A stretch of 64,000 nt of DNA from Emticicia sp. C21 (GTDB lineage Bacteria > Bacteroidota > Bacteroidia > Cytophagales > Spirosomataceae), in contig NZ_QVMT01000003.1 in the NCBI RefSeq assembly GCF_003418935.1, positions 372,001-436,000 on the forward strand, given 5' to 3'. This document shows, piece after piece, positions 32,835 to 59,434 of the stretch. Under the pieces are notes generated by a model. That model did no database searches, was not told the origin of the DNA, and saw only the letters and a list, made by a program, of their open reading frames with translations. Each line of letters opens with the position of its first letter. Position 1 is the first letter of the stretch. Made by a program: the position numbers and the translations under genes.

Positions 32835-32898
32835 TGATGCGTAAATGTTTATTTGGTCGGCAAAGGTACGAGGGAAATATGATATTTAGAAGAATTTA

Positions 32899-32946
32899 GT
32901 GATTGAGTGCTTTAGTGATTGAGTGAATGTGTGATTTAGTGAATAA
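32899..32946 (+). repeat. Six tandem octamers of the GTGATTGA family
   Basis: GTGATTGA GTGCTTTA then GTGATTGA GTGAATGT then GTGATTTA GTGAATAA: an exact 8-base period without coding potential, beside the start of the GT-C gene. Confidence 0.7.
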
Positions 32947-32981
32947 TTGATTATAAAAGGACGAGACTTCAGTTCAAACAG

Positions 32982-42008: not shown

Positions 42009-42956
42009 ATGCTTCGGAAAATATATATACTCATTGTATTGTTTGTAGTTATTTCTTGCGATGTTGCCAAGGAAGATTCAGTAGTACCGGTAGTCAAAGA
42101 CGAGAACCCGGGCAATATCTTCTATACCTTGCAGGAAAATAACCTAACAATAGACCCCACTGCATTTGCTGGACTAAATGAAGCTACGTCTCTTTCGATT
42201 AGCCAATTACCTAAGCATGGTGAAGCAAAATTCATTGAAAATGGATTTATTTTCTATCGTGCCACCGATAAACTGGCTACATCAGATGCTTTCTCTGTGG
42301 AAGGGAAAACCGGAACCGGAGGAAGCATCACAGAAGAGGTGAAAATCAATTTTGTCAGCAATCCGTCAGACCTGCCTTGTTATGCAGGTGCGCTAGGTGA
42401 TAATGCCAAAACAGATCCCGAAAAAGGGGTTGAAATTAATGTGCTTTTGAACGACAAAACCTGTAGTTCGATAGCCGATAATTCTTTAGTGATTGAGATT
42501 CCGCCTAAATACGGAAAGGCCGAAATTGTGAATCAACGCATTGTGTATACGCCTAACAAAGATTATATAGGCAACGATATTTTCTTCTATCGCGTAGGCA
42601 TTAATACCAAAAAGAATCCTGTCGCTTCGGTTGATTTGAAGATTGCCGAATCAACAGAGTGTACAACAGGTATTGTAGACGATATTATTAATATTTTGAG
42701 CTATACGCCTAATACAGAACTGCAGCTGGATGTATTGCAGAATGACAGGCTGTGTGCTTTGTATAAAGATGCAGAATTGCGGATTCTGACGAATCCAACA
42801 GTAGGGACGCTGAGAATTGATAAGACTGTAGACACGCGCCCTGTGATTATGTATAAATTAACAGAAGCCTATAAAGGCCAGCAAAGTTTTGAGTATGCGT
42901 TGTATCGCTCAGAGAAGTTGTTCCTGAAAGCGAAAGTGACAGTGAACTTTTATTGA
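42009..42956 (+). CDS. Lipoprotein with tandem cadherin/Ig-like domains
   Basis: A 315-residue protein with a lipobox (VISC, C17) and no recognised catalytic motif. Residues 40-315 hold about three repeats of a beta-sandwich type in which a strand like GKAEIVNQRIVYTPNKDYIG precedes DIFFYRV; this pattern is shared with bacterial Ig-like/cadherin-like modules. Paired cysteines occur in each repeat. It is likely an outer-membrane lipoprotein. The promoter candidate upstream suggests ECF control. Confidence 0.7.
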   Translation: MLRKIYILIVLFVVISCDVAKEDSVVPVVKDENPGNIFYTLQENNLTIDPTAFAGLNEATSLSISQLPKHGEAKFIENGFIFYRATDKLATSDAFSVEGKTGTGGSITEEVKINFVSNPSDLPCYAGALGDNAKTDPEKGVEINVLLNDKTCSSIADNSLVIEIPPKYGKAEIVNQRIVYTPNKDYIGNDIFFYRVGINTKKNPVASVDLKIAESTECTTGIVDDIINILSYTPNTELQLDVLQNDRLCALYKDAELRILTNPTVGTLRIDKTVDTRPVIMYKLTEAYKGQQSFEYALYRSEKLFLKAKVTVNFY

Positions 42957-42988
42957 GTGATTGAGCGAATGAGTGATTGAGTGATTAA
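42957..42988 (+). repeat. Four octamers of the GTGATTGA family (forward)
   Basis: GTGATTGA GCGAATGA then GTGATTGA GTGATTAA, beginning at the base after the stop codon of the lipoprotein gene. It faces an inverted set at 43060-43099. Confidence 0.7.
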
Positions 42989-47282: not shown

Positions 47283-48677
47283 TTATTTTTCCTCTTCTTC
47301 CTCCTCGCCACCTTCTTCACCATCACTCTCTTCTTCATATTCTTCTTCAGCCTCTTCCTCCTCGTTGTACTCTTCTTCGCTTTCTTCCTCCTCTTCGTCC
47401 TCGTTATACTCTTCTTCGCTTTCTTCCTCCTCATATTCTTCGTCTTCGCCCTCTTCCTCCTCATATTCTTCTTCGTCTTCGCTTTCTTCCCCCTCCTCAT
47501 ATTCTTCTTCGTCTTCGCTTTCTTCCTCCTCCTCATACTCTTCTTCGTCTTCGCTTTCTTCCTCTTCCTCATATTCTTCTTCATCTTCGCCCTCTTCCTC
47601 CTCATACTCTTCTTCGTCTTCGCTTTCTTCCTCCTCATATTCTTCTTCGTCTTCACTCTCTTCTTCATCTTCGCCCTCTTCTTCCTCATACTCCTCTAGC
47701 TCATCATAATCTTCCGGGAGTTCTTCGTCATATTCAACAACCTCAATTTCATCAAACACATCGAAATCTTCATAATCGTCTTCTGTATACACCACAAATT
47801 TATTAGGGTCATAGCCTTTACCTCCATCAACTACCGAGCGTTTATCTTCTTTCCAGGTATCTTCATAATCAGGGATAGGTGCTGTGCGGGCAATCATCCA
47901 GCTATCGCCCATATTCAGCTTAGAGTTTATTACGTAATCATATGGCATGTAGCAATAACCTTTGTCGCCCCACTGCTCACCCCATGAATTGCGTACAATA
48001 AACATTTTATCAACCTCCGAATATCCCACACAAAGCATGGCATGCAATCCATGAGCCTTGCGAGAAGCTTCGTCCGGAGAGGGCATCGGAACGATACCTT
48101 TGTTTTTATTACAATCATCAAATCCTTTAAAAAGCGCTATGCCGAAAATAATAGGGTAGCCTTCTGCCAGACACTGTTTCCAGGCATTCAAATCGGTTGG
48201 AATATATTTGGATTCCTGAACCTTAAAGTTGGCAGCCTCTTCGTAAGTCTTGCCATGCGGTTTGTCATTTACTTTTTGGGTCTCATAAGGCCAGGTTTCT
48301 TCTGTACAAGCGCCTAGTTTGTGCAAGCTATCAATCGCATACTGAATAAAGCTTCCTTTATCCTGAATATTACTACTGGCGCGTAAGCGCGCATTGTAAT
48401 ACACAAATAGTCGGCTTACTTCAAAGGCTCTTTTCTTTAAATGTTTTTTTGCCAGATACTCATACGCTCCGGCGGTGGCATTGGCTGTACAACTACTCAG
48501 ATGTTTTTGATTTTCAACCTTTGTCATGAACGGACGCAGGTCAACTTTTTGAGGAAGGGCAGTTTTTTTTAGTTTAGGTGATGGCTTGTAGTTATCGGCA
48601 TTCGGGCTTGCAGCCATATAAGAATACCCTTTCAGGACACTTTTGGTGCCATCTTTTTGCTTAAATTCCATACTCAT
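47283..48677 (-). CDS. Papain-family (C1A) cysteine protease with long acidic repeat tail
   Basis: A 464-residue protein. The catalytic residues are in order: Gln57 and Cys63 (ENQKHLSSCTANA), His212 (GLHAMLCVGY) and Asn230 (VRNSWGEQWGDKG). There is no signal peptide, so it may act in the cytoplasm. Residues 298-464 are almost all Glu/Asp with regular Tyr and Ser (EEYEEEEGEDEEE type units), coded by a GAA/GAG minisatellite. The tail could bind metal or basic proteins or target the enzyme; this is unknown. Two in-frame starts (48677, 48671) differ by two residues. Confidence 0.85.
   Translation of the reverse strand: MSMEFKQKDGTKSVLKGYSYMAASPNADNYKPSPKLKKTALPQKVDLRPFMTKVENQKHLSSCTANATAGAYEYLAKKHLKKRAFEVSRLFVYYNARLRASSNIQDKGSFIQYAIDSLHKLGACTEETWPYETQKVNDKPHGKTYEEAANFKVQESKYIPTDLNAWKQCLAEGYPIIFGIALFKGFDDCNKNKGIVPMPSPDEASRKAHGLHAMLCVGYSEVDKMFIVRNSWGEQWGDKGYCYMPYDYVINSKLNMGDSWMIARTAPIPDYEDTWKEDKRSVVDGGKGYDPNKFVVYTEDDYEDFDVFDEIEVVEYDEELPEDYDELEEYEEEEGEDEEESEDEEEYEEEESEDEEEYEEEEGEDEEEYEEEEESEDEEEYEEEEESEDEEEYEEGEESEDEEEYEEEEGEDEEYEEEESEEEYNEDEEEEESEEEYNEEEEAEEEYEEESDGEEGGEEEEEEK
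47330..47700. repeat. Coding minisatellite of the acidic tail
   Basis: Tandem imperfect repeats of about 30-48 bases made of GAA, GAG, GAT, TAT and AGC codons inside the protease gene. Copy number is likely variable between strains. The repeats also create long spurious Ser-rich and Lys/Arg-rich frames in other phases. Confidence 0.7.
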
Positions 48678-56766: not shown

Positions 56767-56976
56767 ATGGTCGAAATATTCAAAACAAATGTAGAAGAGA
56801 CTTCAGAATCACTTCTTCTTTTACAGAAACTTTCAATACATTTCCCCGAACACAAAATAAATTTTGACCTGAGTGATTGGGAAAAAATATTAAGAGTGCA
56901 GGGGAAAAATATTTGTGTGGAGAAAATTGTTCAATTGCTTAATAAGGAGAATTATTTGTGTGAGGTTTTGGAGTGA
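56767..56976 (+). CDS. Small HMA-like protein
   Basis: A 69-residue protein (MVEIFKTNVEETSESLLLLQ; HKINFDLSDWEKILRVQG; LLNKENYLCEVLE) with a ferredoxin-like beta-alpha-beta pattern as in heavy-metal-associated domains, but without the CxxC motif. Such proteins are common in Bacteroidota; function unknown. Confidence 0.6.
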   Translation: MVEIFKTNVEETSESLLLLQKLSIHFPEHKINFDLSDWEKILRVQGKNICVEKIVQLLNKENYLCEVLE

Positions 56977-57026
56977 ATTATTTCAAAACTTTAACCATTC
57001 GGATTGGTATTGAGAAGAGGCTGTCC

Positions 57027-57079
57027 CCTCAGAGTCTCCTGTGTGCGCAAGCCAAAAGCTAAGCAAAGGGACTCTGAGG
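57027..57079. repeat. REP hairpin at the 3' side of the RAYT gene
   Basis: CCTCAGAGTC at 57027-57036 and GACTCTGAGG at 57070-57079 with a CTGTGTGCGCAAGCC-type loop. It lies 30 bases from the RAYT stop codon and belongs to the same family as the array at 57699-59240. Confidence 0.85.
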
Positions 57080-57108
57080 TCAAAGGTCTGTGAAATTAGC
57101 AATCATAA

Positions 57109-57672
57109 TCATACATCAAGATAATGCGTCAAAATCACTTGCTTATCCGGCTCATTTAAATCATAAAATCTTGCTGAAGAATATGGGTAGACTAAGTAAT
57201 CACTAGCTAAATTCCACTTCTTGCTTAGAGGATTCTTATGGATATAATCTAATTTTTGTCTGATAAAACTTTCATTAAAACATTCTTTGGCATCATAAGA
57301 TTCTTTAAATACCTGATGTAATTTTCCTTTCTTTGCCTCTTTCGCCCTTACACTATTCTCTAATCTTACTAATAAATCTACCTTGTCGGCGTGTTCTAAT
57401 CTCTTGACGATCTCATAAGCCATGAACCTTTTAGCATTACTGATAATCTTATATAATTCAGGAGCATCTTTGGGTAAATAAATCAGGCAATGCAAATGAT
57501 TGGGCATAAAAACGTAAGCCAATACCTTTATTTGTTGCTTATTCAAAATACTAAACCATTGATACAGGTTATCATATAGTTGGGTTATTTCAAAAAGAGG
57601 AATCCATTGATGACAGGTGAAAGTAACAAAGTAAATCGCATCTCGTTGATTCTGACGGACTTTAACAGCCAT
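57109..57672 (-). CDS. REP-associated tyrosine transposase (RAYT, Y1 HUH family)
   Basis: A 187-residue single-domain HUH transposase. The HUH motif is H59-L60-H61 (VFMPNHLHCLIYL) and the catalytic tyrosine is Y143 in IRQKLDYIHKNP, followed by the conserved YPYSSARFY. RAYTs are domesticated relatives of IS200/IS605 TnpA that act on REP palindromes in the same genome. Here the gene is bracketed by REP hairpins at 57027-57079 and 57699 onward, so it is the likely maker of the array. Full length and intact. Start ATG 57672 gives MAVKVRQNQRDAIYFVTFTC. Confidence 0.93.
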   Translation of the reverse strand: MAVKVRQNQRDAIYFVTFTCHQWIPLFEITQLYDNLYQWFSILNKQQIKVLAYVFMPNHLHCLIYLPKDAPELYKIISNAKRFMAYEIVKRLEHADKVDLLVRLENSVRAKEAKKGKLHQVFKESYDAKECFNESFIRQKLDYIHKNPLSKKWNLASDYLVYPYSSARFYDLNEPDKQVILTHYLDV

Positions 57673-57698
57673 TTTGAATGTGTATTTAGTTAATGTTT

Positions 57699-59240
57699 CC
57701 TCAGAGTCTCCTCATTACTTAAACCCTTGCCCTCAGAGTCCCCTACGTGCCTTCGGAGACTCTGAGAGGACTCAGTACAAACTAATAAAAAATCAAATCT
57801 AGTTATAACTGGACATAAAAATCTTTTTTGTCTCCTCAGAGTGTCCTGTGTGCGTTAGCCAGAGTAAAGCAAAGGGACTCTGAGACCTAAGGCATCTCCT
57901 CATTGCTTGAACCCTTGCCCTCAGAGTCCCCTGCGTTCCTATGGGAGACTCTGAGGGGACTTAATACAAAGTAATAGAAAATCAAATCTATTTATAATCG
58001 GACATAAAAATCTTTTTTTGTCTCCTCAGAGTCCCCTGCGTTCCTACGGGAGACTCTGAGGGGACTTAATACAAAGTAATAGAAAATCAAATCTATTTAT
58101 AATCGGACATAAAAATCTTTTTTTGTCTCCTCAGAGTCTCCTGTGTGCGCTAGCCAGAGTAAAGCAAAGGGACTCTGAGGACTAGGGACTATCCACATTG
58201 CTTTAACCTCTGCCCTCAGAGTCCCCTACGTGCCTTCGGGAGACTCTGAGGGGACTCAAGAGTCTCCTGTGTGCGCTAGCCTAAGAAGAGCAAAGGGACT
58301 CTGAGGACTAAGGCATCTCTTCATTGCTTAAACCCTTGCCCTCAGAATACCCTGCGTTCCTACGGGAGACTTTGAGGGGACTTAATACAAAGTAATAGAA
58401 AATCAAATCTATTTATAATCGGACATAAAAATCTTTTTGTGTCTCCTCAGAGTCCCCTACGTTCCTACAGGAGACTCTGAGGGGACTTAATACAAAGTAA
58501 TAGAAAATCAAATCTATTTATAATCGGACATAAAAATCTTTTTTTGTCTCCTCAGAGTCTCCTGTGTGCGCTAGCCAGAGTAAAGCAAAGGGACTCTGAG
58601 GATTAAGGACTATCCACATTGCTTTAACCTCTGCCCTCAGAGTCCCCTACGTGCCTTCGGGAGACTCTGAGGGGACTCAAGAGTCTCCTGTGTGCGCTAG
58701 CCTAAGAAGAGCAAAGGGACTCTGAGGACTAAGGCATCTCTTCATTGCTTAAACCCTTGCCCTCAGAATACCCTGCGTTCCTACGGGAGACTTTGAGGGG
58801 ACTTAATACAAAGTAATAGAAAATCAAATCTATTTATAATCGGACATAAAAATCTTTTTGTCTCCTCAGAGTCTCCTGTGTGCGCTAGCCAGAGTAAAGC
58901 AAAGGGACTCTGAGGATTAAGGACTATCCACATTGCTTTAACCTCTGCCCTCAGAGTCCCCTACGTGCCTTCGGGAGACTCTGAGGGGACATTAAGGTCT
59001 ATCCCCGTTGCTTAGGCCCTTGCCCTCAGAGTCCCCTTGCTTAACTCTTACCTTTGCACACGGGAGACTCTGAGGGGACTCAATAGATTTCTCTGGTTAC
59101 CTCAGAGTCTCCTGCGTGCGTGAGCCGGAGTAAAGGCAAAGAGACTCTGAGGACTAAGGTCTATCCGCATCGCTAAGACCCTTGCCCTCAGAGTCCCCTT
59201 GCTTAACTCTTACCTTTGCACACGGGAGACTCTGAGGGGA
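57699..59240. repeat. REP/REPIN array
   Basis: About 1.5 kb of palindromes with the core CCTCAGAGTC ... GACTCTGAGG. Type A hairpins have a loop like CTGTGTGCGCTAGCC (for instance 57834, 58129, 58550, 58864, 59100). Type B are shorter with loop CTACGTGCCTTCGG (for instance 57919, 58024, 58214, 58634, 58947). A variant with a longer loop lies at 59023 and 59185. Alternate members are separated by an AT-rich spacer that carries CAAATCTATTTATAATCGG. With 57027-57079 I count nineteen hairpins. No coding potential. Confidence 0.93.
58126..58865. repeat. Macro-repeats inside the REP array
   Basis: The segment starting TCAGAGTCTCCTGTGTGCGC occurs at 58131, 58552 and 58866. The first period is 421 bases and the second 314; the difference of 107 bases is one type B hairpin plus one spacer. 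The copies are nearly identical, so they arose by recent tandem duplication with one internal deletion. Confidence 0.75.
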
Positions 59241-59260
59241 CTCAACTTCTTTATCCCTAT

Positions 59261-59434
59261 TTTGGCTAAAGCCGAATAGGATAGTATCCATTTATTGTAC
59301 CTCCAGCTAAAGCAGGAGGCAATTGAAAAATAAATGCATATACAGGAAACAATTTATTCAATAGCCCCGAGCGACGTCCGCCTATTTTTAAATGGGGTAA
59401 CAAGAAAGTAATATCTTAATTGGCTTTAGCCAAA
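59261..59434. mobile_element. MITE-like element, 174 bp
   Basis: Terminal inverted repeats TTTGGCTAAAGCC (59261-59273) and GGCTTTAGCCAAA (59422-59434) are perfect. Inside, CCTCCAGCTAAAGCAGGAGG is a hairpin and a short GC-rich piece (GAGCGACGTCCGCC) resembles the element at 45420-45540. No coding potential. Confidence 0.55.

Follow-up and report, generated by a model that had tools for sequence, protein, structure and literature searches.

The RAYT locus of Emticicia sp. C21

The window analysed here is a 64,000-nucleotide stretch of Emticicia sp. C21 (Bacteroidota; contig NZ_QVMT01000003.1, positions 372,001 to 436,000), and positions are those of the window unless a contig is named. It holds a gene for a REP-associated tyrosine transposase (RAYT) and an array of repetitive extragenic palindromic (REP) hairpins. 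Within 57027-59237 we counted 19 hairpins, the number that an earlier, sequence-only reading had given, of which 1 lies downstream of the RAYT gene and 18 lie upstream. That reading described the array as following the gene; the RAYT is on the minus strand, so the array in fact lies on its 5′ (upstream) side. The array is made up of seven inverted REP pairs (REPINs), one truncated REPIN and three solo REPs, plus the downstream REP of the gene. The features are as follows.

57109-57672, minus strand: RAYT (TnpAREP) gene, 187 aa, with NHLH (N58-H61), Y143 (YIHKNP) and an SS motif at 165-166
57023-57079, plus strand: REP of type A (long loop) with a GTCCC foot, downstream of the RAYT (hairpin scan, model R1)
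57699-57712, plus strand: half REP, a left arm without partner, the remnant of a truncated REPIN at the RAYT start (sequence)
57731-57771, minus strand: REP of type B (short loop with CGAAGGCACGTAGG), the intact upstream REP of the RAYT (hairpin scan)
57768-57833, unstranded: AT-rich inter-REPIN spacer, diverged copy (88%)
57830-57956, plus strand: REPIN 1 (A 57834-57884, 34-nt spacer, B 57919-57956)
57957-58023, unstranded: AT-rich inter-REPIN spacer
58024-58065, minus strand: solo REP of type B, within the 105-bp tandem duplicate (104/105 identical to 57919-58023)
58062-58128, unstranded: AT-rich inter-REPIN spacer
58125-58255, plus strand: REPIN 2 (A 58129-58180, B 58214-58251)
58259-58377, plus strand: REPIN 3 (A with shortened left arm 58259-58306, B 58340-58377)
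58378-58444, unstranded: AT-rich inter-REPIN spacer
58445-58486, minus strand: solo REP of type B
58483-58549, unstranded: AT-rich inter-REPIN spacer
58550-58672, plus strand: REPIN 4, duplicate of REPIN 2 at +421
58680-58798, plus strand: REPIN 5, duplicate of REPIN 3 at +421
58799-58863, unstranded: AT-rich inter-REPIN spacer, 2 nt shorter
58864-58986, plus strand: REPIN 6
59024-59079, minus strand: solo REP of type B with a long loop
59096-59241, plus strand: REPIN 7 (A 59100-59152, B with a long loop 59186-59237)

The RAYT open reading frame (ORF) looks intact from its sequence, as had been claimed. The HuH motif (N58-H59-x-H61), the catalytic tyrosine Y143, and S165 and S166 are invariant across 17 aligned sequences, and H61 and Y143 are 82 residues apart. 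The Y motif (Y143-xxx-N147-P148) is of the form Y[IM]HxNP shown by relatives, where x is K, A, R, H, S, Q, N, D or E. Pfam Y1_Tnp matches the protein at 23.6 bits, whilst a search of PHROGs gave no match. The predicted structure reached a predicted local distance difference test score (pLDDT) of 91.5 and found 4er8 as its best match in a structure-based search of the PDB (expect value, E, 8.7e-08). This entry, the E. coli REP-associated transposase TnpAREP bound to a REP hairpin, is also the sole PDB sequence match at E <= 0.01. Extra helices at 98-106 and 110-114 are predicted between helix 73-94 and strand 127-131. Judged by these sequence features, the ORF is a real REP-associated tyrosine transposase, and the genome contains one full copy of it.

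A single hairpin in two orientations

Set in a common orientation, the hairpins have a stem of about 10 bp that ends in CAGAGTC, with a few substitutions or shortened arms, followed by an unpaired T. Above the bulged T, an inner stem, CC(C)/GG(G), leads to a loop that measures either 12-13 or 27-28 nt. Two loop types, A and B, had been proposed; A has the long loop and B a mostly short loop containing CGAAGGCACGTAGG. Once B is turned to its reverse complement, the two share the sequence CTCAGAGTC-T-CC...GG-GACTCTGAG and do not differ in the side that carries the one-base bulge, and we reject A and B as separate hairpin kinds in favour of a single hairpin in opposite orientations with different loops. 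Two shortened-arm hairpins (58259 and 58680) are omitted from this listing of orientations, and hairpin 59101 is of type A, its automatic orientation call being wrong. Likewise, the alternation of A and B that had appeared unusual is the ordinary inverted-pair layout of REPINs.

A foot of GTCCC, GTTCC or GTCTC stands on the 5′ side in 35 of 59 distinct REPs (GTCCC or GTTCC in 29, GTCTC in 6), as against 3/59 that have those words 3′; none of the 59 has a GTAG or GTGG foot. The hairpin model R1, built partly from these same hairpins, recovers 19/19 of the array. Among 41 Emticicia REPs, 97.5% of stem cells are paired and 45 cells show two-sided changes, compared with 13.2 in shuffles (0/500 as high); these changes affect the outer part of the stem and its innermost pair.

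The gene had been described as bracketed by REP hairpins at 30 and 27 bases. The downstream one (57027-57079) holds, at 29 bases from the stop, and its DNA fold (57023-57079) has a z of -4.55. The start-side element (57699-57712, at 27 bases) is the left half-arm only of a truncated hairpin, and the nearest intact upstream hairpin (57731-57767) is 58 bases from the start codon. The B loop CGAAGGCACGTAGG occurs in this upstream REP and also 55 bases upstream of the RAYT at two other loci, L012 and L020.

REPINs and growth of the array

Seven times in the array, A and B face inward across a spacer of 33-34 nt. As single-stranded DNA, the 131-nt REPIN at 58125-58255 has as its minimum-energy fold one long hairpin with paired ends (z -4.2), and a dispersed REPIN, L003, folds into two separate hairpins (z -4.3). 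Pairs of A, spacer and B are also found elsewhere in the genome, at C23:658828/658911, C23:653659/653753 (653753 at only E 0.08), C30:133254/133382 and C1:920414/920508, where C23 is the contig of the window. Since the B loop matches the upstream REP of the RAYT and A matches its downstream REP, a REPIN looks like the flanks of the gene without the gene.

The array has been enlarged by tandem duplication of blocks that carry REPINs together with local AT-rich DNA. The block 58049-58440 is repeated at +421 with 390/392 bases identical, and 57919-58023 is repeated at +105 with 104/105 bases identical. The AT-rich spacer, whose conservation had been rightly noted, is present in six copies, every one inside the array, and had no match elsewhere in the genome better than E 0.387. 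As its copies are confined to the array, we reject it as part of a dispersed element.

Arrays of this sort are also seen in relatives. Genome G103 has one of 147-bp period plus 288- and 296-bp blocks, and genome G105 has a regular tandem REP array of 98-bp period. The latter sits at 899-1289 of L046 (G105:C22:308500-310700), in a genome without a RAYT-like gene at E <= 1e-5; this array seems to have outlived its transposase.

Copies elsewhere and association with the RAYT

A genome-wide search for REPs outside the array, which had been suggested as a check, found 16 further hairpins at seven other loci at E <= 1e-3, among the best 150 of 716 candidates scored. Whole-genome counts with model R1 come throughout from the 150 best candidates of a first look that gave 243 to 716 in each genome, such that weak REPs may be missed, and some hairpins are entered on both strands. 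A strict hairpin pattern gave 22 matches in the same genome. Across 222 genomes of the family this pattern was found in 21 and a reversed-pattern control in 0, with single matches in G124 and G169 that may be due to chance. The RAYT was present at E <= 1e-20 in 7/222, and the strict motif occurred in 7/7 of these carriers and in 14/215 non-carriers (Fisher 2.4e-8).

The hairpins also accompany the gene itself. At 22 RAYT loci (from Bacteroidota and one Ignavibacteria metagenome-assembled genome, MAG) a bulged-T hairpin in the expected orientation was found upstream in 13/22 and downstream in 14/22, against a background of 0.024 per flank (17 hairpins in 87,794 bp, genuine REPs included). Eleven of the 22, including this locus, have the hairpin in inverted orientation on both sides and five have it on one side. 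This set leaves out L021 (which coincides with L010), L011 (whose contig equals that of L020 in length and was taken to be identical with it), L033 and the fragments L016-L019, and includes L029, which is without a downstream flank. Four further close RAYTs from a draw of 395 genomes of the phylum had the hairpin upstream in 4/4 and downstream in 3/3 testable cases, leaving out L167 (on a contig of equal length to that of L024, and taken as the same locus) and the fragments L165 and L166. Beside 34 distant RAYT-like genes it was found upstream in 1/34 and downstream in 5/33. These 34 comprise 10 from family genomes with the motif but without this RAYT and 24 from the phylum draw, and their flanks include AT-type hairpins, possibly due to chance, and CAGAGTC hairpins at one of the loci (L192).

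Moreover, differences between REP stems track the distance between RAYTs (Mantel r 0.31, p 0.0004, 20 RAYTs, with the stem of each RAYT entered by hand). Pedobacter psychrophilus, for instance, shares the stem sequence CAGGGTC with a Sphingobacteriaceae MAG, and the stems at the two RAYTs of a Cyclobacteriaceae MAG (SSA6) both read CGGAGTC. Copies elsewhere, a presence tied to the RAYT and stems that follow RAYT distance all support the link between gene and repeats made by the sequence-only reading. It had held that this link would fail if the genome had no other copies and the RAYT was absent from relatives that keep the array; this was not the case here, as copies were found, although in G105 a different REP array is kept without any RAYT-like gene.

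Broken or partial RAYT copies were observed as L018 (G103, 3213848-3214045), L019 (G104, 1457934-1458494) and L016 (G106:C482:12901-13323), each in a genome that also has a full-length RAYT, which suggests past duplication or movement of the RAYT gene itself. In a comparison of gene neighbourhoods, 363 ORFs of the Emticicia sp. C21 genome were set against 1.2 Mb of G103; 65 matched and 24 passed a filter of 65% identity and 60% length, the RAYT being the only one of these in the window.

Position in the chromosome

Five of the eight REP loci of the genome lie at C23:429-659 kb, and guanine-cytosine (GC) skew passes from positive to negative near C23:568 kb (304 kb examined). In G103, a single contig of 5,177,490 bp, all model hits lie at 2.91-3.42 Mb with the RAYT at 3.2155 Mb (best 150 of 623 candidates). 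A direct scan of 1.2 Mb of G103 (twenty 20-kb samples chromosome-wide plus most of 2.60-3.52 Mb) found no REP outside 2.91-3.42 Mb at E <= 0.5. The probability of such clustering is 4e-9 for nine merged loci under a uniform model, where ten loci are listed apart from the RAYT locus. The skew of G103 stays mostly positive as far as ~2.66 Mb, hovers around zero until 3.06 Mb and is mostly negative beyond 3.08 Mb. The REP-rich regions of both genomes may lie near the terminus. In G104 the REP loci (1.27-1.86 Mb) lie away from the skew switch found in its samples, and since this genome does not fit, we reject a terminus location as a general rule. G047 was excluded, as its eight skew samples changed sign several times. 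A k-mer search for a dif-like site common to both presumed terminus regions gave other repeats, none of which could be called as dif.

The stretch G103:C1:3080000-3400000 (L093-L106, L068), which adjoins the presumed terminus and holds several repeat families, has negative GC skew in all 20-kb samples and often low ORF coverage. The Emticicia sp. C21 genome also has a second, unrelated family of GTAG-tagged repeats (GTAGAGACGTATTGCAATACGTCTC, GTAGAGACAGGGCATTGCCCTGTCTC), with 60 pattern matches on 11 contigs (for example C28:42729-42860, C29:445123-445256 and, on the contig of the window, C23:441298), some forming inverted pairs ~105 bp apart. Used as a control, with loci merged by a 5-kb rule, these repeats have 4/38 loci in C23:429-660 kb (Fisher against the REPs 0.004, or 0.013 without the RAYT locus). 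In G103, 6/10 of their loci lie at 2.91-3.42 Mb; one G103 place, at 777 kb, is not palindromic and may be due to chance.

Other repeats and genes in the window

Short repeats of ATTGAGTG (ATTGAGTGAATGAGTG) are found at 32894-32952 and 42952-42986 of the window, and also at C23:542420, C23:644456 and near 2.906 and 2.974 Mb of G103. On the minus strand at 47283-48677 lies an ORF of 464 aa, which resembles a C1-type cysteine peptidase, with a long, Glu/Asp-rich, repetitive C-terminal tail.

Interpretation and alternatives

Taken together, these data make it highly probable that the locus is a REPtron, in which a single-copy RAYT, probably of subclass 2.6, is bracketed by its own REPs and has on its 5′ side a local REPIN array that has grown by tandem duplication. 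Two inverted REPs (a long-loop A, a spacer of ~33 nt and a short-loop B) make up the dispersed REPIN. In the mechanism that we propose by analogy with the biochemistry of TnpAREP, the HuH/Tyr protein would bind the folded single strand through the foot and the bulge, cut beside the folded REP and rejoin, occasionally moving REPINs in trans. We thus infer, for this locus, cleavage of the single strand, a role for the foot and mobility. The hairpins may then promote slippage or recombination, which could enlarge the cluster without further transposition.

Several observations weigh against this interpretation. The RAYT scores 76 bits against NF047646 REP_Tyr_transpos (E 2.8e-21), where the curated cutoff is 80 bits. 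Counted by stem pairs, those with a two-sided change number 4, which is not above shuffles (mean 3.2, 128/500), and the 41 Emticicia REPs were chosen for stem match, which favours pairing. Fourteen genomes carry the motif without this RAYT: 11 have more distant RAYT-like genes, and in G105, G124 and G144 a search at E <= 1e-5 found none; because of these genomes, we consider that the repeats can outlast the gene. Six of the 22 RAYT loci have no bulged-T hairpin in the expected place, one of which (L036) has a pair with a bulged A, and a hairpin in the opposite orientation occurs at 3/22 upstream and 5/22 downstream. A hairpin of unexpected orientation also lies, uncounted, in the 70-base downstream remnant of L169. 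Lastly, the copy number is low against the >100 per genome usual for REPs (PMC2817692; for this and all papers cited below, statements refer to the accessible part of the text), and with one genome per species no insertion event or empty site was seen.

We regard as improbable an origin of the array by RAYT activity only, in which one REPIN after another was inserted beside or into those already there and tandem duplication played no part. Insertion of REPINs into or next to REPINs has been described in Pseudomonas SBW25 (PMC3116915), and the loops differ among the units here, such that more than one REPIN lineage may have arrived. Against this stand the near-identical blocks that recur at 421 and 105 bp with the same AT-rich spacer, the lack of any other copy of that spacer in the genome, and the equally regular arrays of G103 and G105, with periods of 147 and 98. 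Somewhat less doubtful, though still unlikely, is a domesticated RAYT whose hairpins serve the host as a 5′ leader controlling the RAYT, as transcript ends or as nucleoid-binding sites. The array is upstream of the RAYT, REPs elsewhere have host roles (PMC2817692) and stem pairing is kept through two-sided changes. However, 56900-59400 contains no terminator-like site, where shuffles have 2.2 on average, and 3 promoter-like matches, where they have 4.5; Rfam gave no match for the array, and the damaged or incomplete RAYT genes of G103, G104 and G106 look like turnover. On the lack of an Rfam match and of terminator-like sites we reject the array as an RNA family, terminator or promoter array. 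A host role and the REPtron interpretation are not exclusive.

That the repeats mark or serve the replication terminus, with their RAYT association secondary, also has little probability in our view. The loci around the skew change near 568 kb of C23, and those of G103 beside the zone where skew turns negative, would fit such a role, whereas those of G104 lie away from its sampled switch. The GTAG repeats are enriched in the same part of G103, which may be a general repeat-rich zone, and closeness to the RAYT explains the data equally well. An ordinary IS200/IS605 insertion sequence with subterminal hairpins is very improbable. It would share the HuH/Y1 superfamily and have hairpins at both ends, but there is only one full gene copy, repeat copies lacking the gene are more numerous than the gene itself, the hairpins at the two ends belong to one type in inverted orientation, the best match is TnpAREP 4er8 and not IS200, and the motif is Y...NP here as against Y...Q in subclass 1.1 (PMC6006769).

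Beyond the REPtron interpretation of this locus, we offer a more tentative and rather doubtful proposal. Subclass 2.6 RAYTs of Bacteroidota might use a distinct code, a GTYCC-type foot plus a bulged base above a CAGNGTC-like stem, and Emticicia REPINs might spread mainly within a few hundred kb of the gene, near the skew-defined terminus in two of three genomes. If true, local REPIN spread would fit single-strand transposition limited to a local or terminating fork. The clustering of REPs around the RAYT gives a handle on the reach of single-strand transposition.

Comparison with known systems

By its sequence motifs, the RAYT appears to fit best in TnpAREP subclass 2.6, which is RAYT group 5 of Bertels et al. 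2017 (as given in PMC6006769). This is a Bacteroidota-dominated branch of RAYTs, found in Bacteroidetes with atypical, non-GTAG hairpins that were recognised by manual inspection and have copies elsewhere in the genome; the GT[AG]G foot does not hold for it (Quentin et al. 2018, PMC6006769). The present system has in common with it the phylum, the NH[LIV]H motif, a Y motif of YIHxNP form (YIHKNP here, YIH[QN]NP there), the SS motif, a gene flanked by non-GT[AG]G hairpins and copies elsewhere. The HuH-to-Y distance is ~82 residues in a protein of ~179 in the subclass, and 82 in 187 aa here. An insertion of ~21 residues is given for the subclass between helix C and strand 4, and here extra helices are predicted in the 94-127 interval. 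They differ in that the text on subclass 2.6 calls its hairpins atypical without detail, whereas here the hairpin is defined by a bulged-T stem and a GTYCC-type foot, and in that a large tandem array is present here and none is described there (PMC6006769). The bulged-T, GTYCC-footed hairpin gives this branch an explicit, testable substrate, and REPs of the group can now be found by model.

The RAYTs of P. fluorescens SBW25 belong to other RAYT groups. Each of three RAYTs in its genome has a neighbouring REPIN cluster, and its tandem arrays reach 12 REPs (Bertels and Rainey 2011, PMC3116915). The likeness to the array here lies in these RAYT-side clusters and in tandem repeats that include flanking DNA; the REPs themselves differ, and the largest ordered cluster there has four REPINs and one REP, as against seven REPINs in 19 hairpins here (PMC3116915). 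In the E. coli REPtron, or bacterial interspersed mosaic element (BIME), of TnpAREP Ec (4er8), inverted REPs likewise surround the RAYT, the stem has a bulge, and a 5′ tetranucleotide foot and three REPINs are the counterparts of features here. The foot and bulge are GTAG and a mismatch bulge in E. coli (PMC8266576) and GTYCC-type and a single-base T bulge here. RAYT-flanking sequences form BIMEs in one third of cases (PMC2817692).

In the Marinomonas REPtrons Ma and Mb, too, REPs are concentrated near the RAYT, which the authors read as recent arrival and local multiplication, but the RAYTs are of groups 2 and 3 with GTAG REPs (PMC8266576). CGTC-tagged REPs have been reported in Bacteroidetes among other phyla and also have no GTAG tag; they differ in a tag that is unpaired at the end, in loops of mostly 4-5 nt and in that no RAYT is flanked by CGTC units in the accessible text (PMC3733652). 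The accessible parts of PMC3733652 and PMC12306157 hold no description of a bulged-T hairpin, and our literature search, from which supplements and most subscription papers fell outside, gave no paper that we recognised as describing this repeat.

The sequence-only reading had thought so large an array in Bacteroidota to be undescribed. Its size does stand out, being larger than in the published examples found, yet the array is of a known kind, because RAYT-side REPIN clusters are known in Pseudomonas and subclass 2.6 hairpins have been published. What this locus adds is an explicit definition of the hairpin, its link to this RAYT clade and a split between transposition and tandem growth, as the array separates two processes that are often lumped, movement by the transposase and local tandem growth.

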